Below, piece after piece: positions 10,151-26,900 of a DNA stretch of 64,000 bases. Both the position numbers and the translations under genes were made by a program. The notes under the pieces were generated by a model. The model was not told the DNA's origin. It saw only the letters and a program-made list of their open reading frames with translations, and ran no database searches. The stretch is taken from NCBI GenBank assembly GCA_003252385.1, contig QKEH01000114.1:1-64000 (forward strand), read 5' to 3'. The stretch's first letter is position 1, and each line of letters begins with the position of its first letter. This stretch comes from Bacteroidota bacterium. GTDB taxonomy: Bacteria > Bacteroidota > Bacteroidia > Bacteroidales > UBA10428.

Positions 10151-11650
10151 TCAATCCACATTCTCGTGCAGCCAGCGGTTGTTTTCGCTAAGCCTTACTC
10201 CGGAGCCTTTTTCGATATCGTCGGATAAGGAGAAGCGGGAAATTTTACGCTCGTGGGAAGGTTCGTTTTTATCCAGATCGATATTGCGCCTCAGGTAGGC
10301 GGGTTGGTTTTCCATTTCGTCGATATTGTGCTGTACCTGTTGGCTGTTGAGGCTCATTTCGCGGATCTTTTCGTAGCGCTTAAGGTTTTTCACGCGGTTG
10401 GCTGCCTTTTTAGCCTCGGCACTTTGTTCCAGCTTGCGAACCTCAAATTGCTCCTGACTAATAGTACGGCTTTCCATTACGGGGCTCATGTCAAACTCTA
10501 TTTCGCGCTGTGCAACCACATTGTGGTCGGGCACCGGTCGTTTGCGGGTCTTGGCTACCTCCTTCACCTCAAAGGAATCGGCCGGTTCTACGCCGGGTTC
10601 CACTTTGGGCAGCAGCAATTGGGGCGCATCCAACGACACCTTATCCATTTGCCGTTTGCGTATGTATAACTCCGGTATGCTGTTGGTACCAAAACCGGTA
10701 GCAATAACCGTTACACTGATGGCATCGCCCAACGAAGGATCGATACCGTTACCCCAAATCAGGTCGGCATCCTCACCGGCACAATCCTGAATGTAATCGG
10801 TAACTTGGCCGATTTCGTCCATGGTAATTTCTTCGCTGCCCGAAGTAATGTTGATGAGAATATTCCGGGCTCCCTGAATGTTGTTGTCGTTGAGCAGGGG
10901 CGAATTTAACGCATCGGTAACGGCCAGCATAGCCCGGTCGGAGCCGATAGCTGAGCCCGATCCCATAATAGCTACACCGGAATTGCTCATTACGGTTTCC
11001 ACATCGGCAAAGTCAACATTTATATAGCCGTGTACGGTAATAATCTCCGCTATTCCCTTTGCTGCAATGGCAAGTACATCATCGGCTTTCGAAAAGGCTT
11101 CCGACAGCTTCAGATCGCCGTACATTTCGCGAATTTTTTCGTTATTGACCACCAACAGCGAATCGACATATTTTTCGATTTCGGCAATCCCTTCCAATGC
11201 CTGGTTAACCCGGCGCTGGCCTTCGTTCCGGAAGGGTATGGTTACTATAGCCACAGTCAAAATTCCCAGTTCCTTGGCTGCCTTGGCAATTACCGGAGCA
11301 GCTCCTGTTCCGGTACCCCCTCCCATACCAGCTGTAATAAAAACCATCTTGGTATTGGCCGCCAGTATTTCGATCACTTCGTCGAGATTTTCGATAGCCG
11401 CTTCGCGGCCAATGGCAGGCTTGTTTCCGGCGCCTCTACCCTCCGTTAACGAAGAACCCAGCTGCAGCTTAACCTGTACAGGACTGCTCTCCAGAGCCTG
11501 AGCATCGGTGTTGCATACCACAAAATCGACATCCTTAATACCGTTACGGTACATGTGGTTAACCGCATTGCTACCTCCTCCGCCTACGCCGATTACTTTA
11601 ATCATTGAAGAACGGTTAACGGGTAATTCGAAATTCATCAGGTCTTCCAT
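10151..11650 (-). CDS. ftsZ: Cell division protein FtsZ
   Basis: GVGGGGSNAVNHM, tubulin signature GGGTGTGAAP; long linker and C-terminal tail. Confidence 0.98.
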   Translation of the reverse strand: MEDLMNFELPVNRSSMIKVIGVGGGGSNAVNHMYRNGIKDVDFVVCNTDAQALESSPVQVKLQLGSSLTEGRGAGNKPAIGREAAIENLDEVIEILAANTKMVFITAGMGGGTGTGAAPVIAKAAKELGILTVAIVTIPFRNEGQRRVNQALEGIAEIEKYVDSLLVVNNEKIREMYGDLKLSEAFSKADDVLAIAAKGIAEIITVHGYINVDFADVETVMSNSGVAIMGSGSAIGSDRAMLAVTDALNSPLLNDNNIQGARNILINITSGSEEITMDEIGQVTDYIQDCAGEDADLIWGNGIDPSLGDAISVTVIATGFGTNSIPELYIRKRQMDKVSLDAPQLLLPKVEPGVEPADSFEVKEVAKTRKRPVPDHNVVAQREIEFDMSPVMESRTISQEQFEVRKLEQSAEAKKAANRVKNLKRYEKIREMSLNSQQVQHNIDEMENQPAYLRRNIDLDKNEPSHERKISRFSLSDDIEKGSGVRLSENNRWLHENVD

Positions 11651-11790
11651 TGGTATTCGTTTATTGGGTTTTAAGGCAACTGGTTCTACTCACTTATTCT
11701 ATCAGGTTTTGGTATTCCATCTCACCGGCTTTCCGATGACAATTCTTTTTGGTACAACTGCAAGGCAGCGAATGGGTTCTCCTTGGAGGA

Positions 11791-13131
11791 TTATTCAAAA
11801 TCGGCTCCCTTTTCCTCAAAGATATCGGTAATGCGTCGTTTGAAGACGTCAATAATGCTGGTGCCGGAGCGGGTTTCTTTAGTTTCCACTTCGAATTCGT
11901 CTTCCTCCTCCACTTCAGGTACCACCTCCTTTACTTTGGGCTGGGGAATGGGTTTACGTTTGGTTTGTTCGCCCGAGGAAACTTCCCATCCTTTAATCAG
12001 CAGCCCCAAACTGGTAGCATACTGTGGCTTGTTAAGCTCTTCGTTACGTTCTCCGGCAATAAAATCGACCGGATATCCAATGCGGACATCCATTCCGGTA
12101 TGAAAACGAACCAGCTGGGCCACATGCTTCAGCAGGGCACCCCCACCGGTTAACACAATTCCGGCACTTAACTTATCCATGCAGCCACTGTTTTCAATTT
12201 CAAACATCACGGCATCGATAATCTCTTCCATACGAGCCTGAATGATGTAGGCCAGGTTTTTAAAGGAAATTTCCTTGGGGTCGCGTCCGTTGATTCCGGG
12301 AATGGTAACCACTTTATCTTCGGGAGCCAGATCGCCCAAAGCGGAACCAAACTGGGTTTTCAAGGCTTCGGCCTGCCGATGCAGGATTTTGCATCCTTCT
12401 TTGACATCCTGGGTGATTACGTTGCCGCCAAAAGGTATTACAGCCGTATGCCGGATGGTATCGTCGTAGAACACAGCGACATCAGTGGTTCCTCCACCAA
12501 TATCAATCAGAGCCACCCCAGCTTCCTTTTCATCGTCGGTAAGTACCGCTGCCGATGATGCCAAGGGCTCCAGAATCAGTTGGTTGACGTTCAGATGGAT
12601 ACGGTTGACGCATTTTTCGATATTACGGGCTGAGGCAATTTGCCCGATCACAATATGAAAATTGGCTTCGAGCCGCCGTCCCGACATACCCACCGGATTT
12701 TTTACCCCGGTTTCGCTATCCACAATAAAGTTCTGAGGCAGTACGTGTATAATTTCCTCGCCGAGTTCAATGGGAATTTTCTGCATATCGGCAATAAGGG
12801 CATCGATATCCTTTTGCTCAATTTCGTCGCGGTCGGATCCCAGGTTGATGTACCCCCGGTTTTTAATGCTTTTAATATGCTGCCCGGCAATGCCTACAAA
12901 CACATCCTGGAATTTGACCCCAGCCTGTCTTTCGGCTTCCTCGACCGTTTGACGGATGGCAGTAACCGTTTCTTCAATATTCAATACCACGCCCCGCTTA
13001 ACCCCCTTCGATACGGTTTTACTCATGCCCAATACTTCGAGTTTTTTACCCTCGGTCATACGCCCAATCAGCGAAACAATTTTCGTTGTTCCAATGTCGA
13101 TAGCGGCTACATACTTATTTTCCTGCCCCAT
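11791..13131 (-). CDS. ftsA: Cell division protein FtsA
   Basis: Actin-like fold: AAIDIGTTK, LIDIGGGTTDVAVF, IVLTGGGALL. Confidence 0.98.
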   Translation of the reverse strand: MGQENKYVAAIDIGTTKIVSLIGRMTEGKKLEVLGMSKTVSKGVKRGVVLNIEETVTAIRQTVEEAERQAGVKFQDVFVGIAGQHIKSIKNRGYINLGSDRDEIEQKDIDALIADMQKIPIELGEEIIHVLPQNFIVDSETGVKNPVGMSGRRLEANFHIVIGQIASARNIEKCVNRIHLNVNQLILEPLASSAAVLTDDEKEAGVALIDIGGGTTDVAVFYDDTIRHTAVIPFGGNVITQDVKEGCKILHRQAEALKTQFGSALGDLAPEDKVVTIPGINGRDPKEISFKNLAYIIQARMEEIIDAVMFEIENSGCMDKLSAGIVLTGGGALLKHVAQLVRFHTGMDVRIGYPVDFIAGERNEELNKPQYATSLGLLIKGWEVSSGEQTKRKPIPQPKVKEVVPEVEEEDEFEVETKETRSGTSIIDVFKRRITDIFEEKGADFE

Positions 13132-13140
13132 AATTCGTTT

Positions 13141-13941
13141 TTATATTTTGGTACAAACAACCTGATCTTTATATTTCAGATTTATTTTCAGATAGTGGTT
13201 CCATCCCACGGTATTCAATCCTTCCTGATAAAACACCTTCAGTTTTTTAAATTTCTGTTCGTAGCGATCCATGCTCCCAAGCAGAATTACATGCGGCCCT
13301 ACGCGGGGTATCAGCTCGTATTCGCCCGAAGCATTGCAATATACCTGCACAATTTGCGCTTTCCAGAATTCTTCGGAATCGATAAAGGTGGCCAGCTCCA
13401 ACAGATCCAGCAACCGCGTTTTCTGTTTCGATTCGGGTAACTGAAACACATTAATCGGCTGACCCACATTCAGTCCGGAACGAACGTAACCGCTAATAAC
13501 CAGCACATGGGGCGAAAACCCTGTGGTGGTATTGAGCACATTGCCCTTGCGGTCGAGGTAAAAGCTTTTTCCACTTTGTTCTATCACCCGTACCAGCGGT
13601 TCGCGTTGGGTAATGTCGATATGCAGGCAACCGTTTACGCCGGTATAGGCCTTGCAAACTTTTACCAGCTGATTTTTGGTCACTGCCTGCTCAATCTCAT
13701 CCAGGGCAATGTCATCCAGTTGCATTCCAAAGAGTTTCAGATCCTGTTTGTCCAAAAGGCGCAGCACATCGTTGTGATGAATAAAACCCATTTGGGCACT
13801 GTCTTCGACACTCACCTCAATACGATTGCACATCTGATCATCGTACCTGGAACGCACAAAGCCCAGTACCAATATCAGATACAACAGGGTACCCAACCAC
13901 AAAGCGGTTTTACGCAATATCTTCATCGGTTCTCCATCCAT
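13141..13941 (-). CDS. ftsQ: Cell division protein FtsQ
   Basis: N-terminal TM, POTRA/FtsQ-like region, position in dcw cluster. Confidence 0.9.
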   Translation of the reverse strand: MDGEPMKILRKTALWLGTLLYLILVLGFVRSRYDDQMCNRIEVSVEDSAQMGFIHHNDVLRLLDKQDLKLFGMQLDDIALDEIEQAVTKNQLVKVCKAYTGVNGCLHIDITQREPLVRVIEQSGKSFYLDRKGNVLNTTTGFSPHVLVISGYVRSGLNVGQPINVFQLPESKQKTRLLDLLELATFIDSEEFWKAQIVQVYCNASGEYELIPRVGPHVILLGSMDRYEQKFKKLKVFYQEGLNTVGWNHYLKINLKYKDQVVCTKI

Positions 13942-15299
13942 TGTTTTATAGGAGCCACCAATCGGTCAATATCACCGGCTCCAATGGTCAACAACACCTC
14001 AAATTTTTCATTTTCCAGCGCAGAAAGCAAATCAACTTTTGAACAGCGTTGCTTTTCTTCCAGAGTAACAGCCCGGTAAATAATCTCGGAGGTGATTCCC
14101 TGTATGGGTTTCTCACGTGCCGGATAGATATCGAGCAGGATCAATTTGTCGAGGGCACTAAGGCTTTCGGCAAATTCAGGCGCAAAGTCGCGCGTACGGC
14201 TAAACAGATGCGGTTGAAAGATGCCGGTTATTTTTTGCCCCGGGAACAAGCGCCGTACTGACCCTATCAGGGCATCCAACTCCCGTGGATGGTGGGCATA
14301 GTCGTCGATATACACACCGTTGGCACCTTGGTACTGCACATCGAAACGACGTTGCACACCGGCAAACTCCGAAAGTGCCGTGCGGATGGTAGTTCTATCG
14401 ACCCCGGCGAGTGTACTCAGAGCTGCGGCTGCCACCGCATTTTCAACATTGGTGAGTCCGGGGCACTGCATGGTTATTTGTTCAATTATACCTTCCGGGG
14501 TTTTAATATCGAAAGTGTACCTGCCGGCCTGGCAGGTGATATTCAGGGCAAAAAAGTCAGCCTTTTCATCGTCGAGGGCATAGTACAGCAGACTACGGCC
14601 GGCAAGATCAAAATCGAGGGCAATGCTTTTTTTCAGAATTACGGTGCCACCCTGTTTGGTTTGATCCACAAAGCGGGCAAACGTATCCTGCACATCCTTC
14701 TCATCGTGGTAAATGTCCAAATGGTCGGCATCCACCCAAGTTACCAGAGCCACTTCGGGATAAAGTTGCAGGAACGACCGGTCGAACTCGTCGGCTTCCG
14801 CCACTACCCACGGGCTTTCGGGGTGCAATATCAGGTTGCTGTTCAGGTTTTTCAGAATACCTCCCAAAAAGGCATTGCATCCCACCGGCGAGCGATGCAG
14901 AATAAAGGCGGTCATGGACGAAACCGAGGTTTTACCATGAGTTCCGGCTATGGCCAGTCCCCTTTGCTGATTAAACAACCACCCGAGCACTTCGGCCCTT
15001 TTCCGTACCTCAAAACCCTGTTCCAGAAAATACACGAGTTCAGTATGATCGGCAGGCACAGCAGGGGTGCGTACCACCAGCGTATGTTCTTTTTGCCTGA
15101 AAGCTTCCGGCACCCGCGAAATGGAATCTTCGAAATGAATGGCGATTCCCAGCGATTCGAGGTCGGCGGTCAGGGACGAAGGAGTGAGATCGTAACCGGC
15201 CACCGGAAGTCCCTTGGCGTGGAAGTACCGTGCCAGGGCACTCATTCCAATACCTCCTATTCCGAGGAAAAAAACACGTTTTACAGTTTCCAGGTTCAT
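13923..15299 (-). CDS. murC: UDP-N-acetylmuramate--L-alanine ligase
   Basis: FLGIGGIGMSALAR, AGTHGKTSVSSM; overlaps ftsQ. Confidence 0.97.
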   Translation of the reverse strand: MNLETVKRVFFLGIGGIGMSALARYFHAKGLPVAGYDLTPSSLTADLESLGIAIHFEDSISRVPEAFRQKEHTLVVRTPAVPADHTELVYFLEQGFEVRKRAEVLGWLFNQQRGLAIAGTHGKTSVSSMTAFILHRSPVGCNAFLGGILKNLNSNLILHPESPWVVAEADEFDRSFLQLYPEVALVTWVDADHLDIYHDEKDVQDTFARFVDQTKQGGTVILKKSIALDFDLAGRSLLYYALDDEKADFFALNITCQAGRYTFDIKTPEGIIEQITMQCPGLTNVENAVAAAALSTLAGVDRTTIRTALSEFAGVQRRFDVQYQGANGVYIDDYAHHPRELDALIGSVRRLFPGQKITGIFQPHLFSRTRDFAPEFAESLSALDKLILLDIYPAREKPIQGITSEIIYRAVTLEEKQRCSKVDLLSALENEKFEVLLTIGAGDIDRLVAPIKQWMENR

Positions 15300-15405
15300 G
15301 TGCTTTGCGGTGCTAAGTTTTTTATGTACTACCAGTGTTTGGCCTTACTCACGTTTTTTCAGGTATAACCCATTCTCGAAACGCTTCCGGATTTCGCTGG
15401 TTTCT

Positions 15406-16518
15406 TTATCGTTTTGAGCTCCTCTCTACTATTTTTTCGACTTCATCCACAATTTGTGCAGTGGCATCGGGCTGTGCCAGGCGGAGACTGTTTTTCCGCA
15501 AGGAGGCACATCGTTCCTTATCGGCAAGCAACTCCAGTGCGGCAGTTACCAGCTTCTCCCCGGCTTCCTTATCGCTGATGAGCACCGCTGCATTTTCTTT
15601 TACCAATGCCAGGGCATTTTTCGTCTGATGATCTTCCGCTACATTGGGCGAGGGAACCAGAATACTGGCTGTTCCCGTCAGACAGATTTCGGAAATACTG
15701 ATGGCTCCGGCCCGGCTAATCATTACATCGGCCACATTGTATGCCAAATCCATGCGGGCTATAAAGGGAAGAACATGGAGAAGGGGATGCGAGGTATCCA
15801 CCCGTACCGACATTTCATCGTAATAGTATTTTCCGGTTTGCCAAACTACCTGAATGCCTGCATCGAGAAGCAGGCTCACATGGGCAGCCATAGCATTGTT
15901 AAGAGTTCGGGCTCCCAGGCTGCCCCCCACAATAAGCACCACCGGTTTTTCGGACTGTAGGTTGAAATGGGTAAGAGCATCGGCTCGTAACTCTTCCGAA
16001 ATTTTTATGGGTCGCACCGGATTACCGGTCAGTACCAGTTTATCTTCCGGAAAGTATTTCTCCATTCCGGAATACGCCACACAGATGACACTTGCCTTGG
16101 CCGCTAACAGTTTATTGGTAACCCCGGCATAGCTGTTTTGCTCCTGCAACAAGGTAGGTATACCTTTTCGGGCTGCACTCCGCAGAACCGGCCCGCTGGC
16201 ATAACCTCCCACTCCTATGGCCAGCGAAGGTTGAAACTCCCGCACCAGTTTGCGAGCCATCAACAAACTCCGGATAAGATCTGCAACGACCTTAAAATTT
16301 TTAAGTGTAATGCGCCTCTGGATTCCCGATACCGGCAAACCCACTATTTTATATCCCGCCGCCGGAACACGTTCCATTTCCATACGGCCCCGTGCACCCA
16401 CAAAAAGGATTTCGGCTTTCGGATAACGCCGGCGGATTTCATCGGCAATGGAAAGTGCCGGAAAGATATGCCCTCCGGTTCCTCCTCCGCTAATTAGTAT
16501 CTTCAGTGGGTTCATCAT
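15406..16518 (-). CDS. murG: UDP-N-acetylglucosamine transferase MurG
   Basis: SGGGTGGHIFPALSIADEIRRR; GGSLGARTLNN. Confidence 0.98.
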   Translation of the reverse strand: MMNPLKILISGGGTGGHIFPALSIADEIRRRYPKAEILFVGARGRMEMERVPAAGYKIVGLPVSGIQRRITLKNFKVVADLIRSLLMARKLVREFQPSLAIGVGGYASGPVLRSAARKGIPTLLQEQNSYAGVTNKLLAAKASVICVAYSGMEKYFPEDKLVLTGNPVRPIKISEELRADALTHFNLQSEKPVVLIVGGSLGARTLNNAMAAHVSLLLDAGIQVVWQTGKYYYDEMSVRVDTSHPLLHVLPFIARMDLAYNVADVMISRAGAISISEICLTGTASILVPSPNVAEDHQTKNALALVKENAAVLISDKEAGEKLVTAALELLADKERCASLRKNSLRLAQPDATAQIVDEVEKIVERSSKR

Positions 16519-17665
16519 GATTCGGTGTCTCTTCTTTTTTTATTTTCTGATCGCTGGCACTTACACTTAGAATTATTCCAAAAGCTGCCGAGGTAAACAG
16601 CATCGAGGTACCTCCCATACTGATCATGGGAAGCGGCTGACCGGTTACCGGGAAAATACCCACCGCCACCGCCATATTGGCCATGGCCTGCGATACCAGG
16701 AGCAAGGCGAGCCCAAAAGCCAGAAAGGCAGCAAAAGTGCGCGAACACTTCCGAACTATCAACCCGGCGCGGAACAGTAATACCAAATAGAGCAATACCA
16801 CAAAAACGCCCCCGATAAGTCCGTATTCCTCAACAATGATGGAGAAAATAAAGTCGGAATAGGGTTGGGGCAGGAAGTTGCGTTGCATGCTGTTTCCGGG
16901 ACCCTTACCAAAAAAACCTCCGGTTACAATGGCAATTTTGGACTGCTCCGACTGGTAGTTTCCATCGCTCTCCTGCTCCATGTGATGCACAATACGGTTC
17001 CGCCAGGTACCCCATCGACCTCCCCATTCGGACTTCACCGCAATGGTAATCAGGATGGCCAGCAAAGCAATCATCAGGATGGCCAAGAGTCCAATGTAGG
17101 TAGCCCGCACGCGCCCCACAAACATCAGGGTGAGCGACACGGCAAACAGAATAACTGCTGTGGACAGGTTGGCCGGCATAATGAGTGCTGTTATCAGCAA
17201 CACCGGCCCAATAAGGGGCATAAAACCTTCCCGATACGAACGGATTACCTCCTGCTTTAAGGAGAGCAAACGGGCAATGTACATGATCAGCGCAATCTTG
17301 GCCAGGTCGGAAGTTTGAAAGGAAATTCCGGTACCGGGCAGCGTGAGCCAGCGCGAAGCATTGTTAATACTGGTTCCAAAAAAAAGGGTTACTACCAGTA
17401 AGGGTATCGACAACAAGAGTAGCAGGTGCGAAACACGGGAATAATAGGTATAGGGCACCAGATGGGTGAAGTAAGCCACAGCAAAACCGAAGAGTATAAA
17501 CACGATGTGTTTCACAACATAGTAGCCCACATGCCCCGAATGATACTGATACGCCAGGGTGAAGGTAGAACTGTATACCGCCAGCAACGAAAGCAGCGAC
17601 ATAGCAACCAACAAGCCCCAGATGACGACATCGCCTTTAAAATTCTTCTTCAACAATTCCTGCAT
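16490..17665 (-). CDS. ftsW: Peptidoglycan polymerase/division protein FtsW (SEDS)
   Basis: Multi-TM SEDS protein, QSEQSKIAIVTGGFFGKGPGNS, EEYGLIGG; start at MQELLKKN preferred over ORF-track start 17755. Confidence 0.96.
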   Translation of the reverse strand: MQELLKKNFKGDVVIWGLLVAMSLLSLLAVYSSTFTLAYQYHSGHVGYYVVKHIVFILFGFAVAYFTHLVPYTYYSRVSHLLLLLSIPLLVVTLFFGTSINNASRWLTLPGTGISFQTSDLAKIALIMYIARLLSLKQEVIRSYREGFMPLIGPVLLITALIMPANLSTAVILFAVSLTLMFVGRVRATYIGLLAILMIALLAILITIAVKSEWGGRWGTWRNRIVHHMEQESDGNYQSEQSKIAIVTGGFFGKGPGNSMQRNFLPQPYSDFIFSIIVEEYGLIGGVFVVLLYLVLLFRAGLIVRKCSRTFAAFLAFGLALLLVSQAMANMAVAVGIFPVTGQPLPMISMGGTSMLFTSAAFGIILSVSASDQKIKKEETPNHDEPTEDTN

Positions 17666-17681
17666 ACTCTGCTTCTTCGGA

Positions 17682-19019
17682 TTATAATTCGCGCACACAC
17701 TCTTTAAACTGTGCGCCCCGATCTTCGTAACTTTTAAACAGGTCGAAGCTGGCACAGCAAGGCGATAACAGAACGGTGTCGCCTTTTTCGCCCATTTTAT
17801 AGGCTTTGTTTACCGCTTCCTTCATTGAACCGGCGTCGGCGATGGTGTCTACAACGGAATCGAAGGCTTGGTGCAATTTGGTATTGTCGGTTCCTAAACA
17901 TACAATGCCCTTTACTTTCTCCTTCACCAGAGGAATCAGCGAAGAATAGTCGTTCCCTTTATCCACACCGCCAACAATCCAAACGGTTGGGCCGGTCATA
18001 CACTCCAGAGCATACCACGACGAATTGACATTGGTAGCTTTGGAATCGTTAATAAACTCAATGCCATGTACCTTGATAAAGCGTTCCAAACGGTGCTCCA
18101 CACCGCTGAAATCGCGCAGGCTTTCGCGTATAATTTCCTTTTTAATATCAAGAATGCGCCCCGCCAGGCTGGCAGCCATGGAGTTATAGGTATTGTGTTT
18201 TCCTTTGATGGCAATTTCGTCCAGCGGCACTTTCATCTCGGTGTTCTTCACTTTAATAACCATTTGTCCTTCATCCACATAAGCACCCTCCTTAACAATT
18301 TTGGTTTGGGTAATTTCCAGTTGGCGGGCACGTGTTACAATTCGCTCCAGTTCTGCTATGGTAATTTCATCGTCGGAACAGTAAATAAAATAGTCGTCCT
18401 CGGAAAGATTCTTTGATATGCTCATTTTGGAATCCACATAGTTTTGCATGTTGTAACCGTAACGATCCAGATGGTCGGGGGTGATATTCAGCAACACGGC
18501 AATGTCGGGTTTAAATTCGTACATGCCATCCAGCTGAAAACTGCTCAATTCAAGAACGTAGTAATCGTACTCCTTGGTGGCCACCTGCATGGCAAAACTT
18601 TTCCCTACGTTACCGGCCATACCACAATTGAGTCCGGCCTTACGAAGCATGTGATGCAAAAGCGACGTAGTGGTGGTTTTTCCGTTACTTCCGGTGATAC
18701 AGATTTTTTTGGCCTGGGTATAACGCCCGGCAAATTCAATCTCCGAAATAATCGGAATATTCTTGCGGAGTACTGCCTGAATAATATCCGATTTATCGGT
18801 AATACCTGGGCTCTTAATAATCTCATCGGCGTTCAGGATCAACCTCTCGGTGTGCTGTTCCTCCTCCCATTCGATCTCGTAGTTAAATAGGATTTCCTTG
18901 TAATGCGGTTTAATTTTTCCGATGTCCGAAACAAAAACATCATAGCCTTTTAATTTTGCCAAAACGGCCGATCCGGTTCCGCTTTCGCCTGCGCCAAGTA
19001 TTACAATTCTTTTCTCCAT
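17682..19019 (-). CDS. murD: UDP-N-acetylmuramoyl-L-alanine--D-glutamate ligase
   Basis: ILGAGESGTGSA, CITGSNGKTTTTSL, HRLE, NDSKATN. Confidence 0.98.
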   Translation of the reverse strand: MEKRIVILGAGESGTGSAVLAKLKGYDVFVSDIGKIKPHYKEILFNYEIEWEEEQHTERLILNADEIIKSPGITDKSDIIQAVLRKNIPIISEIEFAGRYTQAKKICITGSNGKTTTTSLLHHMLRKAGLNCGMAGNVGKSFAMQVATKEYDYYVLELSSFQLDGMYEFKPDIAVLLNITPDHLDRYGYNMQNYVDSKMSISKNLSEDDYFIYCSDDEITIAELERIVTRARQLEITQTKIVKEGAYVDEGQMVIKVKNTEMKVPLDEIAIKGKHNTYNSMAASLAGRILDIKKEIIRESLRDFSGVEHRLERFIKVHGIEFINDSKATNVNSSWYALECMTGPTVWIVGGVDKGNDYSSLIPLVKEKVKGIVCLGTDNTKLHQAFDSVVDTIADAGSMKEAVNKAYKMGEKGDTVLLSPCCASFDLFKSYEDRGAQFKECVREL

Positions 19020-19023
19020 GGTT

Positions 19024-20274
19024 TTACCTCATTTTAAGGGTTACGATTGTTATTACAGCTAGTAGTATGCCCACAATCCAGAAGCGGGTCACAATTTTAG
19101 GTTCGGGATAACCTTTTTTCTGATAGTGGTGGTGTAAGGGTGACATAAGAAATATGCGACGCCCATCGCCATATTTCTTTTTGGTGTATTTAAAATAGCT
19201 TACCTGCAGCATCACCGATAAATTTTCGACTAAAAAAATGCCGCAGAGGATGGGTATTAGAAATTCTTTTCGGATCAATATGGCGAATACCGCAATGATT
19301 CCTCCAATGGCCAAACTGCCGGTATCGCCCATAAATACCTGAGCCGGATAGGAATTGTACCACATAAACCCAACGAGGGCACCAATAAAGGCTCCTATAA
19401 ATACCACCAGCTCTCCGGTGTAGGGTATGTACATAATATTGAGGTAATCGGAAAAAATCAGGTTACCGGATACATAAGCCAGTATCCCGAGTGTGCTGCC
19501 TATAATGGCCGAACTTCCCGCCGCCAGGCCATCCAGACCGTCGGTCAGGTTGGCACCATTGGATACCGCGGTAATAATCAGGATAACCACCAGTACAAAA
19601 ACCACCCAGGTATATTTTCGAGCCCCTTCACCCAGGTAGCTGATCAGCATAAAATAATCGAACTCATTGTCCTTGACAAAGGGGATGGTAACCCGGGTCG
19701 ATTTAATGTCCTGGGTCGGCACTACAACGGACAATGGAAACTCATCAGTTTCGGCCACCACTTGTTCCTGCAGCGGCTTTGCTCCTACAGGAATACGTTC
19801 GCGAATGACCACATCATCGCTGAAATACATGGTGAATCCAACCAGTAAGCCCAGGCCCACCTGGCCGGCAATCTTAAATTTACCGCGCAATCCTTCCTTG
19901 TTCTTCCGGTACACTTTTATGTAATCGTCGAGAAAACCCACAAATCCCATCCAAACCGTAGCTGCCAGCATCAGCAACACGTACACATTTGTAAGGTCGC
20001 CCAACAGCAGTATCGGAATCAGAATCGCTGCCAGAATGATAATCCCGCCCATGGTTGGAGTACCCTTCTTCTGCATCTGGCCTTCGAGTCCCAGTTCGCG
20101 AATGGTTTCCCCAATTTGTTTGCGTTGCAGTAGATAAATTATTTTTTTGCCGAAAACCGTAGAAATAAGCAGCGACAAAATGACTGCCATACCCGTTCGG
20201 AAGGAAAGGTATTTAAACATTCCGGCACCGGGCACATCCAGCTTTTCGAGGTATTCAAACAGGTGGTACAGCAT
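19024..20274 (-). CDS. mraY: Phospho-N-acetylmuramoyl-pentapeptide transferase
   Basis: [35 protein letters not shown]. Confidence 0.98.
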
Positions 20275-20282
20275 TTTTCAGG

Positions 20283-21755
20283 CTATTGTAAGTTATTGTT
20301 GTTGTCAAAAAAGCGTCGTACTTCTTCCTTGTCATCGAAATGACTGCGCACGCCCTTTACTTCCTGGTAGGTTTCGTGCCCTTTACCGGCAATGAGTACC
20401 ACATCGCCCGGCTGAGCCATCAGACAGGCCGCACGTATGGCTTCGTGCCGGTCGCAGATCGACAGTACCCGGTTCCGGTCAGCGGGTTCCACCCCAGCCA
20501 TCATTTCGTCTATAATCGCCTGAGGTTCCTCACTGCGCGGATTGTCCGAAGTCAGTATCACGTTCTGGCTCATAGTTAAAGATATGGCGGCCATCTTGGG
20601 GCGCTTGGTACGGTCGCGGTCACCACCGGCTCCTACCACCGTAATCAATCGGGCATTTTCGCCTTTAATCTGATTGATGGTTTCCAGTACATTCTTCAGT
20701 GCATCGGGGGTGTGGGCATAATCCACTATGGCGGTAACACCATTGTTGGATCGCACATATTCGAAACGGCCGTCTACGGTCTCCAGACAGCTGATAAGGC
20801 GTAATACCTCCTGTTTATCGGCTCCAAGTAAGCAGGCAGCGCCATATACCGCCAGCATATTGGAAGCATTGAATTCGCCAATCAATTTCAGCCACAATTC
20901 CATCGAATTAAACTGCACCTGCATACCATCAAAATGGCTTTCAATAATTTTTCCTTTGAAATCGGCCATGGAACGCACGCCGAAGGTGCTCACCCGGGCA
21001 GCCGTATTCTGCACCATTACCCGGCCATTGCGGTCGTCGACATTAACCAGGGCAAAGGCCGTACCGGGCAATTCGTCGAACAACCGTTTTTTAGCCTTCA
21101 GATAGCTGTCAACGGTTTTATGGTAATCGAGGTGGTCGTGGGTGAGGTTGGTAAAAATGGCTCCGTCGAAGTCAATTCCTGCAGAGCGGGCCTGATCGAG
21201 TGCGTGCGAGCTTACTTCCATAAAAGCATAGGAACAGCCGGCATCAACCATCATTCGAAATAAACGCTGAATGGTAAGCGGATCGGGGGTGGTATGGGTG
21301 GCTGTGATTTCTACATCGTTCACCAGGTAGCGTACCGTGGAGAGCAAGCCCACCTTATAACCCAGCCGGGTGAAAAGCCGGTAAAGCAAGGTGGCAATGG
21401 AAGTTTTACCATTGGTACCGGTAACGCCAACCACTTTCATTTCGCGACTGGGGTTACCGTAATAATTGGATGCAGCTACCCCAAGAGCCCAGGCGGCACT
21501 ACCCACCTGATAAAAGGTAACTCCCGGAGTCAGTTCTTCGGGCAGACGTTCGCAAAGAATGGCTGCTGCCCCCTGGGCAATGGCTTTGGAAATGAAGTTG
21601 TGCCCATCGGCTACCGTTCCGGGAACGGCAACAAACAAGTCGCCTTGCTGCACCTTGCGCGAATCAAACTCCATTTTCGCAATGCGAATGCGATCGTCTC
21701 CTACCCATTTTCCGGGAATACCCTGTAAAATTTGTTTCAGTTCTATAGTCATCAT
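20283..21755 (-). CDS. murE: UDP-N-acetylmuramoyl-tripeptide synthetase MurE
   Basis: VTGTNGKTSIATLL, DNPRSEEPQAIIDEM (DNPR motif suggests meso-DAP specificity). Confidence 0.97.
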   Translation of the reverse strand: MMTIELKQILQGIPGKWVGDDRIRIAKMEFDSRKVQQGDLFVAVPGTVADGHNFISKAIAQGAAAILCERLPEELTPGVTFYQVGSAAWALGVAASNYYGNPSREMKVVGVTGTNGKTSIATLLYRLFTRLGYKVGLLSTVRYLVNDVEITATHTTPDPLTIQRLFRMMVDAGCSYAFMEVSSHALDQARSAGIDFDGAIFTNLTHDHLDYHKTVDSYLKAKKRLFDELPGTAFALVNVDDRNGRVMVQNTAARVSTFGVRSMADFKGKIIESHFDGMQVQFNSMELWLKLIGEFNASNMLAVYGAACLLGADKQEVLRLISCLETVDGRFEYVRSNNGVTAIVDYAHTPDALKNVLETINQIKGENARLITVVGAGGDRDRTKRPKMAAISLTMSQNVILTSDNPRSEEPQAIIDEMMAGVEPADRNRVLSICDRHEAIRAACLMAQPGDVVLIAGKGHETYQEVKGVRSHFDDKEEVRRFFDNNNNLQ

Positions 21756-23875
21756 CCTTCAGTAAAACTCATTTCCAGTTTAATTACATCGCCCCTTCGC
21801 ACCCGCGAGCCGGCAGGTATCGATTGTTTGCGAACACTACCCCGCCCTTGAACCTGTACATGCAGTCCCAAATTTTCGAGCAGGTATACGGCATCCTTCA
21901 ACCCCATCGACACCACATTAGGAACCAAATTGGGAATCACCCGGCTGGTAACCAGTGCCACGCGGTCTTCTTCCTTTTTGGGAATCACCCATTCGCTGTG
22001 CTTATTATCGGAACGCACATCCAGGTTTAACTCATCCAACACTTCGGCTATTTCCGGCTGGTAGCCTTTTTTCGAGAACGGAATTTCCAGATGCTCCGGT
22101 TTCTGTTCGTTCACAGGGGCTAACATCTTTATATCGGTAGCATACACTTGTTCGGCAATCTCGGCAAATACGGGAGCCGCCACTTCGGCACCATGATACA
22201 ACTGATTTTGCGGGTTGTAAACCACCACAATACAGGAATACCGGGGTTTGTCGGCTGGAAAGTAGCCCACAAATGAGGCTTGGTAGGATCGGGTGCTATA
22301 GCCGGTTTTTCGATTGTACATCTGGGTGGTTCCCGTTTTTCCGGCAATGGTAACCGGGCAGGATTTCAGCTCCCGGGCTGTTCCTTCCTGCACCACACCT
22401 TCGAGCATACCTCGTACCATGCGCAAGGTGGAACGCGAGCAAATGGAGTGGTTAATCTCTTCGGTAACAAAGGTGCGTTCCACTTTTCCGTGGTTGCGTA
22501 CCTCACGCACAAAACGCGGACGCACCATCCGGCCGTCGTTGGCAACGGCATTGTAGAATGCCAGCAGTTGCAGCGGTGTTATGCGCACCGTGTATCCATA
22601 CGACATGGACGCCAGGGTAACCCCCGACCAGAGTTTGTCGCCCGGATACAGGATTTTGGGAATCCCTTCGCCCCGGATCGAAATCCCCAAGGGTTCGTTG
22701 AGGTTCATGCTATACAGTCGGTCAATAAAACGATGGGGACGTTGCTCATACGCTCCGGTAACAATTTTGGCCATGGCCACATTCGATGATACCTCCAAGG
22801 CACGCTGTACGGTAATGGTACCGTTGCCCCCGCGGGTGTAATTATCGTCGCGTACCACCAGGTCGTAATATTCAAAAACCCCTTTACCGGTAGCAATGGA
22901 ATCGGTTGCGGTAACATATCCATCTTCCAGTACTGCCACCATTACCGGCAGCTTAAAGGTGGAACCGGGTTCGGAGCTGAGCCCCACTGCATAGTTATAG
23001 TATTCGCGATATGCCCCAAAGGTGTCTGTCAGGTTCACTATGGCTTTCACTTCGCCGGTTTTTACTTCCATGAGCACTGCCGTACCGGCATGTGCCTGGT
23101 TTTTAACCAATTGTTTAAGTAGCGCCCGCTCAGCCACGTCCTGCAAATTCACATCGATAGTAGTTACCACGCTACTTCCGTCGCGGGGTTCAATTTCATC
23201 GGCGCCATCCAACGGCATCCAAATATTGCCCGCCAGCTTCTGCATCTTTTGAATACCCTCCACGCCTCCGAGATATTCGTCGAATGCCCCTTCGATACCC
23301 ACCACATTTCCCGAAACGCTCTGGGTGGTATATCCGATGGTTCGCGAAGCCAGATTCTGATGGGGTTTTTTACGAACACTTTCCTGGCTTACAATAAGCC
23401 CTCCCTTGTACTGCCCCAACCGGAGCAGGGGGAAGGTCTTTACTTTCTTAAGCTGCACGTAGTTTACCCGGCGCTGAAGGAGGCAATAACGATTACCCTC
23501 GCGGCGTCCCTGGATTAATAATTGCTTGTAGGCTCCCTTGCTCTTATCGCGAAACAGTTGCGACAGACACATCGCCAACGAATCGACCTTGCTGTTAAAC
23601 AGGGCATCGGTCAGCGCGGGAGTTTTCAAATCCATGCGTATATCGTAATACGGCACCGAGCTGGCCAGCAAACGCATATCGGAAGCATAAATATCGCCCC
23701 GTTGTGGCGGTATGCGAATGTTTTTGATGCGCGTTTCAGCAGCTGCCTGTTTCCAGCGATCGTCGTCGACAAATTGCAGGTAGATGATCTTAAAAACGAT
23801 CAACAGCGCAAAGAGCAACACCCCCAGATACACCAGGCCCACTTTCAGTAGTATGTCCTTCTTAGTTGACGCCAT
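21752..23875 (-). CDS. ftsI: Penicillin-binding protein FtsI/PBP3 with C-terminal PASTA domain
   Basis: Transpeptidase motifs SSEPGSTFKLP, SSN, KTGTT; PASTA-like VPNVVSMGLKDAVYLLENLGL. Confidence 0.96.
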   Translation of the reverse strand: MASTKKDILLKVGLVYLGVLLFALLIVFKIIYLQFVDDDRWKQAAAETRIKNIRIPPQRGDIYASDMRLLASSVPYYDIRMDLKTPALTDALFNSKVDSLAMCLSQLFRDKSKGAYKQLLIQGRREGNRYCLLQRRVNYVQLKKVKTFPLLRLGQYKGGLIVSQESVRKKPHQNLASRTIGYTTQSVSGNVVGIEGAFDEYLGGVEGIQKMQKLAGNIWMPLDGADEIEPRDGSSVVTTIDVNLQDVAERALLKQLVKNQAHAGTAVLMEVKTGEVKAIVNLTDTFGAYREYYNYAVGLSSEPGSTFKLPVMVAVLEDGYVTATDSIATGKGVFEYYDLVVRDDNYTRGGNGTITVQRALEVSSNVAMAKIVTGAYEQRPHRFIDRLYSMNLNEPLGISIRGEGIPKILYPGDKLWSGVTLASMSYGYTVRITPLQLLAFYNAVANDGRMVRPRFVREVRNHGKVERTFVTEEINHSICSRSTLRMVRGMLEGVVQEGTARELKSCPVTIAGKTGTTQMYNRKTGYSTRSYQASFVGYFPADKPRYSCIVVVYNPQNQLYHGAEVAAPVFAEIAEQVYATDIKMLAPVNEQKPEHLEIPFSKKGYQPEIAEVLDELNLDVRSDNKHSEWVIPKKEEDRVALVTSRVIPNLVPNVVSMGLKDAVYLLENLGLHVQVQGRGSVRKQSIPAGSRVRRGDVIKLEMSFTEG

Positions 23876-23886
23876 ACATCGCGCAG

Positions 23887-24255
23887 TTATTGTTCAATTT
23901 TATAGGGTGGCTCCTTGGAGAAACCCAATCCCAGATTATGTTCACGAACCAAAGCCTCCACTCGCGAAGGACGGTTCAGATTCATCAGTTCCGAAGCCGT
24001 GGTGATTTCTTCGGCACGCAAATCCCTTACCTGGCTCTTAAGCCCTTCAATCTCGCGCACCACTTTTTCGGCATTGTAGCGGTTGGCGATATACACCAGC
24101 GCCAACAACACCAGGAACAGAATGAAAGGAATCTGCCGAACAAAGGCATGCACCGTGAGCACGCTGCCGTCCAGCACGCTCTTGAGCGAAAAGCCCGTAA
24201 GCTCAGCCCGCTCCTGCTTGGCATCTACAAATTCTACATTATCCTGCTCTGTCAT
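23887..24255 (-). CDS. ftsL: FtsL-like division protein
   Basis: Small bitopic protein between rsmH and ftsI; start MTEQDNVEF at 24255 favoured (ORF track 24297). Confidence 0.8.
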   Translation of the reverse strand: MTEQDNVEFVDAKQERAELTGFSLKSVLDGSVLTVHAFVRQIPFILFLVLLALVYIANRYNAEKVVREIEGLKSQVRDLRAEEITTASELMNLNRPSRVEALVREHNLGLGFSKEPPYKIEQ

Positions 24256-25168
24256 ACTCCCCATGTTCCTGTTTTTCAGCAATCCGTAGCCGGGCACTTC
24301 GCGCCCGGTTATTCAATTCAAGTTCTTTCTGATCCGGCACTATCACCTTATTGTTCACCGGAGTGAGAGGTCGCAAAATATTTCCGAACAAATCGGTTTC
24401 GGTACTTCCCGTATCGAAACTTCCGGTTCGGAAGAAGTTCTTCACCACACGGTCTTCCAACGAGTGGTAACTAATTATGGATAAGCGTCCACCGGGAGCC
24501 AAAATTTCTGTTGCCTGGGTCAACATACTTCTGAGGTAGTCTATTTCGTGATTCACCTCAATACGCAGCGCCTGAAAAACCTGCGCATAAAACTGATGGT
24601 CGCCCCACCGGGGAGTTACTTTTCTGAGAGCCTCCTGCAAGTCGCCTACGGTCTGCAAGGATGCCTTTGTCCGGTGTTCCACAAGCAGATGAGCCACTTT
24701 CGCGGCATTTTTTAATTCGCCATAGACTCTGAAAATCCGGGTGAGTTCGTCGGCAGTATAACAGTTAACCAAATGAGCCGCCGTAATTTCGGAATGACGG
24801 TTCATGCGCATGTCCAACTGGGCATCGAACCGGAAGGAAAACCCCCGGTGAGGGCTGTCAAAATGATGCGATGACACGCCCAGATCGGCTAACAGACCAT
24901 CAATTTGTTCAATGCCATGATACTTGAGGAAATTCTTTAAGAACCTGAAATTGTGCCTAACAAATACAAACCGTTCGTCGTTGGGAACGTTTGCCATAGC
25001 CTCCTCATCCTGATCAAATCCCACCAATTTTCCACCTTCTAATCGTTTTAAAATCTCACGCGAATGTCCACCGCCCCCGAAAGTAACGTCGACATAAATT
25101 CCGTTGGGCTTAATGTTGAGCCCGTCAACGCTTTCTTTCAATAGTACTGGCAGGTGGTATTCCATCAT
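24239..25168 (-). CDS. rsmH: 16S rRNA (cytosine(1402)-N(4))-methyltransferase RsmH (MraW)
   Basis: MMEYHLPVLLKESVDGLNIKPNGIYVDVTFGGGGHSREIL, DLGVSSHHFD. Confidence 0.98.
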   Translation of the reverse strand: MMEYHLPVLLKESVDGLNIKPNGIYVDVTFGGGGHSREILKRLEGGKLVGFDQDEEAMANVPNDERFVFVRHNFRFLKNFLKYHGIEQIDGLLADLGVSSHHFDSPHRGFSFRFDAQLDMRMNRHSEITAAHLVNCYTADELTRIFRVYGELKNAAKVAHLLVEHRTKASLQTVGDLQEALRKVTPRWGDHQFYAQVFQALRIEVNHEIDYLRSMLTQATEILAPGGRLSIISYHSLEDRVVKNFFRTGSFDTGSTETDLFGNILRPLTPVNNKVIVPDQKELELNNRARSARLRIAEKQEHGEYDRAG

Positions 25169-25632: not shown

Positions 25633-25653
25633 TCGAAATGGTATAAATCGGCA

Positions 25654-25661
25654 TAAAAGTA
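25654..25661 (-). promoter_or_regulatory. Probable mraZ/dcw -7 element
   Basis: Minus strand TACTTTTA, close to TAnnTTTG, about 22 nt upstream of mraZ. Confidence 0.4.
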
Positions 25662-25670
25662 AGGATTTTT

Positions 25671-25710
25671 ACCCCACTTTCAACCATTTAACCCCACTTT
25701 CCTCCACAAT
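25671..25710 (-). promoter_or_regulatory. Four tandem 10-bp repeats, candidate MraZ operator
   Basis: Minus strand: ATTGTGGAGG AAAGTGGGGT TAAATGGTTG AAAGTGGGGT; TGG in identical register every 10 bp. Confidence 0.8.
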
Positions 25711-26045
25711 GTTGATAACTTTTACACCGTTCATCCGCGTTTTTATTACTGAAGCAAAAGCATACCCTGCCCTGCACCCTTAGACAGTATTGATCTGCAA
25801 GGCGATTCCCCAACTTCAATATCGCAGCTGCTCCACCCTGTAAGCGAGAAAGGCACCGCACCTTTCTAACTCCACAGCAGGCAAGAAACACTATGCAAGA
25901 CGTTGATACTATGAACAAAGCACGCCAATAGCCCTGGAACGCCCAAATTGAGTTCCGACCTGCATTGCTTTAAAAATTAACCATTGACGCTTATTGCCCG
26001 GGCATTTTATTCTAATTTTAGAGCTTCTGAAAAACGGCAGCCCGT

Positions 26046-26900
26046 ATGAATGCACAATACCCCCCATCCTCCACTCAGCACCGCATAGATATCGAACAGG
26101 TATTCCGCTCAAAAAGTCCCAAAACTACACGTTGGATTCCGGGCTTTGTGTACCGCTATCTCAAACGCATTATTCACGAAGATTTCGTGAACGATTTCCT
26201 GAAACTGCATGGCGGGAAAAAGAACATTGATTTTATCAACGCCAGCATCCACGATTTCAACGTAACCATTGAGGTTATTGGCGAAGAGAATATTCCGGCG
26301 GAAGGACGCTTTGTATTTGTCTCGAACCATCCTCTGGGAGGCTTCGACGGCCTGGTGCTTATGCAAATTATCGATCGTCATTTTAAGGACTACCGTTTTC
26401 TGGTGAACGACATACTCATGAACCTGACCCATATCCGGGAGTTGTTCATACCCATTAACAAACACGGAAGACAAGCGTTGGAAGCCGCCCGGCAGATCGA
26501 AAACAGCTATGCCTCGGACATGCAGCTGCTCACCTTCCCGGCCGGTTTGGTTTCGCGAAAAATCAAGGGTCAGATCATGGATCTTCCCTGGCAAAAAAGC
26601 TTTATCGTAAAAGCCCGGAAACACAAGCGCGATATCATTCCCATACATTTTAGCGGAAGCAATTCCGCATTCTTTTATCGCCTGTCCAAACTCCGAAAGT
26701 TTTTAGGCATTAAGGCCAACCTCGAAATGCTATACCTGGCTGACGAAACCTATCAACATCGAAATAAACACTTTACCATTACCATTGGGAAACCCATTCC
26801 GTATACCACCTTCGATACCGGCAAGGATCCTATGCAGTGGGCCAAATGGGTTAAGCAACAAACCTACCTGCTTGCCGGAGTTACCGAAGTACCTTTATAG
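26046..26900 (+). CDS. PlsC-like O-acyltransferase (GlsA-like)
   Basis: VSNHPLGGFDG (HX4D motif), FPAGLVSRK; followed by GNAT-type acyltransferase. Confidence 0.85.
   Translation: MNAQYPPSSTQHRIDIEQVFRSKSPKTTRWIPGFVYRYLKRIIHEDFVNDFLKLHGGKKNIDFINASIHDFNVTIEVIGEENIPAEGRFVFVSNHPLGGFDGLVLMQIIDRHFKDYRFLVNDILMNLTHIRELFIPINKHGRQALEAARQIENSYASDMQLLTFPAGLVSRKIKGQIMDLPWQKSFIVKARKHKRDIIPIHFSGSNSAFFYRLSKLRKFLGIKANLEMLYLADETYQHRNKHFTITIGKPIPYTTFDTGKDPMQWAKWVKQQTYLLAGVTEVPL

Follow-up and report, generated by a model that had tools for sequence, protein, structure and literature searches.

A predicted MraZ operator and an adjoining DnaA-box-like site at the mraZ promoter of a Bacteroidota bacterium

Results

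An MraZ Gene Heads the dcw Cluster

The window, by which we mean the whole 64,000-nucleotide stretch of DNA that was analyzed, contains the sole MraZ gene of its genome (25165–25632, minus strand; 155 amino acids; Pfam MraZ PF02381, E = 1.7e-25). The encoded protein shares 34% sequence identity with E. coli MraZ in an alignment and has two conserved DxxxR motifs (D13-R17 and D90-R94); its sequence matches in Pfam and the PDB are sufficient to identify it as MraZ. Downstream of mraZ and on the same strand lies a dcw cluster (10151–25168), the presumed target of the mraZ promoter, whose open reading frames follow the order rsmH, an ftsL-like ORF, ftsI, murE, mraY, murD, ftsW, murG, murC, ftsQ, ftsA, and ftsZ. 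We located rsmH by a PF01795 search and recognized the remaining genes by their sequence and order. A divergent acyltransferase gene (26046–26900, plus strand; PF19576, E = 8e-72) shares with mraZ the 413-bp intergenic region at 25633–26045, and a similar divergent ORF is found beside mraZ in loci L003, L004, and L012.

Four direct 10-bp units occupy positions 25671–25710 of the minus strand, in exactly the sequence given by an initial annotation of this DNA. Box 1 (25710–25701) reads ATTGTGGAGG, box 2 (25700–25691) and box 4 (25680–25671) both read AAAGTGGGGT, and box 3 (25690–25681) reads TAAATGGTTG, with TGG starting at 25706, 25696, 25686, and 25676. The array is located 39–78 bp upstream of the mraZ start (25632). 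The pattern TGG-N7-TGG-N7-TGG-N7-TGG occurs once in the window (0.01 occurrences are expected from dinucleotide shuffles) and twice in the 3.93-Mb genome, the second copy having no box-like flanks. As an MraZ operator we would accept at least three direct GTGG/TGGG boxes with a 10-bp period, placed directly upstream of mraZ as the first dcw gene, conserved together with mraZ in relatives, and accompanied by a cognate MraZ with both DxxxR motifs. The array at 25671–25710 has this composition, one of its four boxes being ATGG, and this position, and both motifs are present in the window's MraZ.

Promoters of the Bacteroidota type carry TTTG at −33 and TAnnTTTG at −7. A probable −7 element, TACTTTTA, is found at 25654–25661 (minus strand); its assignment in the initial annotation fits the relatives, in which TAnnTTT mostly follows the last TGG of the array by 13 or 15 nt. 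Judged by the Bacteroidota promoter type, GTTG within MraZ box 3 (25681–25684, minus strand) is a possible −33 element, with 19 nt separating it from the −7 candidate downstream.

The Array Is Conserved Upstream of mraZ

We drew on 57 loci in named genome records that had been retrieved by MraZ protein similarity rather than by DNA, so that the upstream sequence played no part in their selection. The resulting set of mraZ upstream regions comprises 55 relatives and the window (n = 56). TGGs in consecutive 10-bp slots number four in 35/56 regions and three in 19/56. The phylogenetic footprinting that the initial annotation had proposed thus finds at least three in-register TGGs in 54/56 regions, compared with 0.12 in shuffles of the same sequences, and in 26 of 28 clusters when one region is kept per group of MraZ proteins more than 80% identical. 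Two or three boxes with the same period are usual in the remaining families of the class, and also in distant members of the phylum whose promoters are of the TTGACA type. The four copies had been singled out as notable; four turns out to be the usual number among close relatives.

The E. coli mraZ operator likewise consists of direct TGGG/GTGG boxes with a 10-bp period just upstream of mraZ. In E. coli K-12 these boxes read TGGGAAATTGTGGGGCAAAGTGGG and include AAAGTGGG; because period and unit are both present there, they are a common property of such operators. The repeats had also been described as a blend of two published types, which is not borne out, as the E. coli boxes share the period and the repeat unit is that of MraZ boxes in general. 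The arrangements differ in that the three boxes of E. coli follow a promoter of the TTGACA type, whereas the window has four, upstream of the −7 element and over the presumed −33 region. In Mollicutes the MraZ site is made of direct repeats, AAAGTG[T/G] (Fisunov 2016, cited in PMC8475190), and these AAAGTG-type repeats are located at the mraZ promoter, as in the window. The site occurs once in the M. genitalium chromosome. The passages of PMC8475190 consulted describe no adjoining DnaA-like box, whereas the window has such a site (see below).

The footprinting and the comparison with E. coli strongly support a predicted MraZ operator that overlaps the mraZ promoter, and the four repeats are very likely a genuine and conserved MraZ binding site. 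Taken alone, the array is an ordinary MraZ operator, with four boxes as the local norm in this clade. In a broader sampling of the phylum, MraZ went undetected in family f24 (eight of eight genomes) and in four other genomes, and nearly all other samples were positive.

A Second Conserved Element Adjoins MraZ Box 1

Footprinting anchored on the array places the limit of the conserved element beyond position 25710, where it had first been drawn. A distinct 13-bp site, AAAGTTATCAACA (25710–25722, minus strand), adjoins MraZ box 1, and its core, TTATCAACA (25718–25710, minus strand), starts 12 nt before the first TGG. The motif TTWTNAACA is present in 50/56 mraZ upstream regions, as against a mean of 2.7 and a maximum of 9 in shuffles. 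Among the 54 array-bearing regions it starts at −12 relative to the first TGG in 42 and at −13 in 7; in the cases with 13-nt spacing the entire array moves together. The array-anchored 9-mers (TTATTAACA, TTATCAACA, TTTTCAACA, TTTTTAACA, and TTATGAACA) vary only at position 3 (A/T) and position 5 (C/T/G). Column counts anchored on the 9-mer fix its invariance by construction; the repeat count is anchored solely on the TGG array. In the array-anchored alignment, conservation ends a few bases ahead of the 9-mer, and 8 nt upstream of it the columns carry almost no information.

Five array-bearing regions lack TTWTNAACA and have nothing similar at that position; four of them belong to one rumen-type group (L052–L055). 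A search with the exact composite pattern returned 30 of 149 genomes of the order and a reversed control pattern returned 6. The figure of 30 is a lower bound, as the strict pattern fixes both spacing and bases. Nearly all strict matches that we inspected precede an MraZ-like ORF. No box was found at mraZ in family f9, in two of three f6 genomes, in f10, or in phylum members outside the class, and in family f2 a TTWTNAACA-type site is present at mraZ in reverse orientation. Elsewhere in the genome, at least one copy of the 13-mer AAAGTTWTYAACA is probably intragenic and others lie upstream of unrelated genes, and thus this 13-mer alone defines no regulon.

Similar Sites Mark Replication Genes

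The canonical DnaA box, TTWTNCACA, agrees with the window site at eight of nine positions and is degenerate at the same two (W3 and N5). At position 6 it has C. The window site has A there, as do all in-register sites in the close set. We class the window site as DnaA-box-like and outside the canonical DnaA box. A DnaA site should further be expected ahead of replication genes, in many cases as part of a pair or cluster, in a genome that encodes a DnaA with its DNA-binding domain. Such a DnaA is encoded (PF08299, E = 1.1e-28), and boxes precede dnaB, the HU gene, gyrA, parAB, and dnaA in this genome or in its relatives. The sites at dnaB were reached through a search for paired boxes; dnaB, DnaA, and MraZ were found by family models, and the other genes were named from the starts of their proteins.

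In the window's genome, GTTATCCACAAGTTATTAACA is located ∼140 bp before dnaB (L189; G000 C20:45397–45416) and consists of the canonical TTATCCACA and the variant TTATTAACA side by side. In three genomes of family f5, dnaB is preceded by boxes at 80 and at 100 bp, giving a spacing of 20 bp, and one of the three pairs TTATCCACA with TTATTAACA there. The homologous dnaB site of G103 has TTATCCACA in place of TTATNAACA, and the boxes at dnaB read TTATGCACA in f3 genomes and TTATCCACA in f2 genomes. Judged by context, five f5 genomes have a similar pair ahead of the HU gene, the HU ORF itself being identified in four. The closest relative has another pair ahead of parAB, and in G312 the interval from gyrA to a clp gene holds several boxes; dnaA and gyrA of the window's genome are likewise preceded by boxes. 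From these occurrences, we consider the TTWTNAACA site at mraZ quite probably a DnaA site.

Several further box arrangements were seen. In four f5 loci (L171, L174, L176, and L177) paired TTATNAACA boxes, 20 bp apart, lie ∼110–130 bp upstream of HU, a gene located in f5 between fmt and a yqgE/algH-like gene. In four f3 loci (L072, L089, L095, and L088), canonical DnaA boxes such as TTATCCACA precede mraZ by ∼90 to 190 bp, and the MraZ boxes are near or overlap the likely −7 element. On contig C42 of the window's genome (G000 C42:7600–8160; L100 2600–3160), two copies of TTATTAACA, one of TTATCAACA, and one of TTATTCACA sit in ∼1 kb of non-coding DNA near an rpsP/rimM pair, where the GC skew changes locally; this region is a possible candidate for the replication origin.

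Other Readings of the 13-bp Element

The array could be an MraZ operator next to which some other regulator binds AAAGTTATCAACA by reading the partial palindrome GTTNNNAAC. In the box-anchored set, G stands just before the 9-mer in 92% and A at the three preceding bases in 96–98%, and GTT/AAC forms a partial inverted repeat. The G is, however, lost in several f5 and f4 mraZ sites (ACTTATCAACA and AATTATTAACA) in which TTWTNAACA holds, C6 and A6 forms replace each other at homologous sites (dnaB, and mraZ in f2), and the site marks replication genes. The strict palindrome GTTNNNAAC was rejected, and another regulator is improbable.

It is far less probable that the 13-bp element is a part of the promoter, such as an UP-like element or a sigma contact with no dedicated regulator. 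Its distance to the −7 element is near-fixed in relatives and it starts A-rich, as this would have it, but UP-like elements and sigma contacts do not take the form of exact 9-mers, the distance between this 9-mer and the dnaB, HU, gyrA, and dnaA starts varies (about 80–350 bp), and in family f2 the element at mraZ is reversed. A fifth, degenerate MraZ box (AAAGTT for AAAGTG), suggested by the AAAGT with which both the site and the MraZ boxes begin, was rejected as highly unlikely, because the site is two to three bases off the 10-bp register and has no TGG, the part that is kept is TTWTNAACA, and the 9-mer is found at dnaB, HU, and gyrA without MraZ boxes.

DnaA Residue 435 and Position 6 of the Box

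In the E. coli structure, Thr435 of DnaA touches bases of the DnaA box. The E. coli recognition helix contains Asp433-His434-Thr435; the DnaA of the window's genome keeps the Asp and the His and has Ala at the position of Thr435. We compared this residue with the boxes in 58 genomes. The order genomes among them had been picked by the A6 pattern and lend no independent support to the mraZ column, so that families f2–f10 alone form the unbiased rows. In family f3 (Thr435) C6 boxes are present in 7/7 mraZ upstream regions, one of which also has an A6 box. In family f5 (Ala435) A6 boxes are present in 6/7 and C6 boxes in none, and the single f7 genome tested (Ala435) has an A6 box. Families with Ser435 are mixed: at the same reversed mraZ site, two f2 genomes have TTTTCCACA and a third has TTTTCAACA, and f4 has A6 at mraZ and C6 elsewhere. 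Nearly all order genomes combine Ala435 with A6; G290 and G255, of the same order, combine Ser435 with A6. As the Ser435 lineages are mixed, residue 435 alone does not set the specificity. The association between residue 435 and box position 6 is suggestive, the lineages compared being few and related.

Discussion

The initial annotation was right to place an operator at the mraZ promoter and missed the conserved DnaA-box-like site that adjoins it. Together the two sites form a composite, which is the larger finding, and the DnaA-box-like site is its more surprising part. We propose that the composite is probably a site of MraZ/DnaA control over the dcw cluster, with an A6 box that would be read by an Ala435 DnaA, and that the mraZ promoter may be the place where this group ties cell division to DNA replication.

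In our model, MraZ would occupy the four direct repeats on one face of the helix and cover the presumed −33 region, the array stopping 9 bp short of the −7 element. By extrapolation from the MraZ proteins of E. coli and Mollicutes, MraZ bound there would obstruct RNA polymerase and so repress its own operon. DnaA, with Ala at the Thr435 equivalent, would bind TTWTNAACA as a lineage-specific box with A6, and its occupancy may adjust MraZ-controlled dcw transcription to the state of replication initiation. The near-fixed spacing of the two sites suggests that DnaA and MraZ touch or compete. The DnaA-like site is centered ∼64 bp ahead of the position at which we estimate transcription to start; given this distance and the predicted cover of the core promoter by MraZ, we lean toward DnaA opposing MraZ repression, a sign that is a tentative guess. 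A wider proposal would have DnaA read TTWTNAACA as an altered box in much of the class, in connection with changes at Thr435, and would make the dcw promoter a fused DnaA/MraZ switch in locked register. DnaA and MraZ would touch or compete at this one site, and the initiation of replication would thereby directly set the expression of division genes; we regard this proposal as evenly balanced.

Sites of MraZ and DnaA also meet in E. coli, at the mioC promoter next to oriC. MraZ has been reported to bind there to a site that overlaps a DnaA box and to lower mioC transcription upon overproduction (PMC4446571). The mioC DnaA box reads TTTTCCACA. This site controls mioC and has no ordered four-box array, whereas the window site precedes the dcw cluster. 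In the E. coli mraZ region itself, the nearest DnaA-type 9-mer is ∼235 bp upstream, whereas that of the window adjoins the array. Our literature search, made in an open library without most subscription papers, returned no Bacteroidota MraZ operator, no changed Bacteroidota DnaA box, and no report on the MraZ structures 9qlr, 9qlg, and 9sx6.

A DnaA-like site locked beside the MraZ operator in many Bacteroidota offers one promoter at which to test both the purpose of MraZ and the way in which bacteria couple the expression of division genes to replication. If the DnaA box of Bacteroidota is indeed changed, predictions of origins and DnaA regulons that rely on the E. coli consensus might overlook sites in this phylum. 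The composite site may also affect the divergent acyltransferase gene, with which mraZ has its intergenic region in common.
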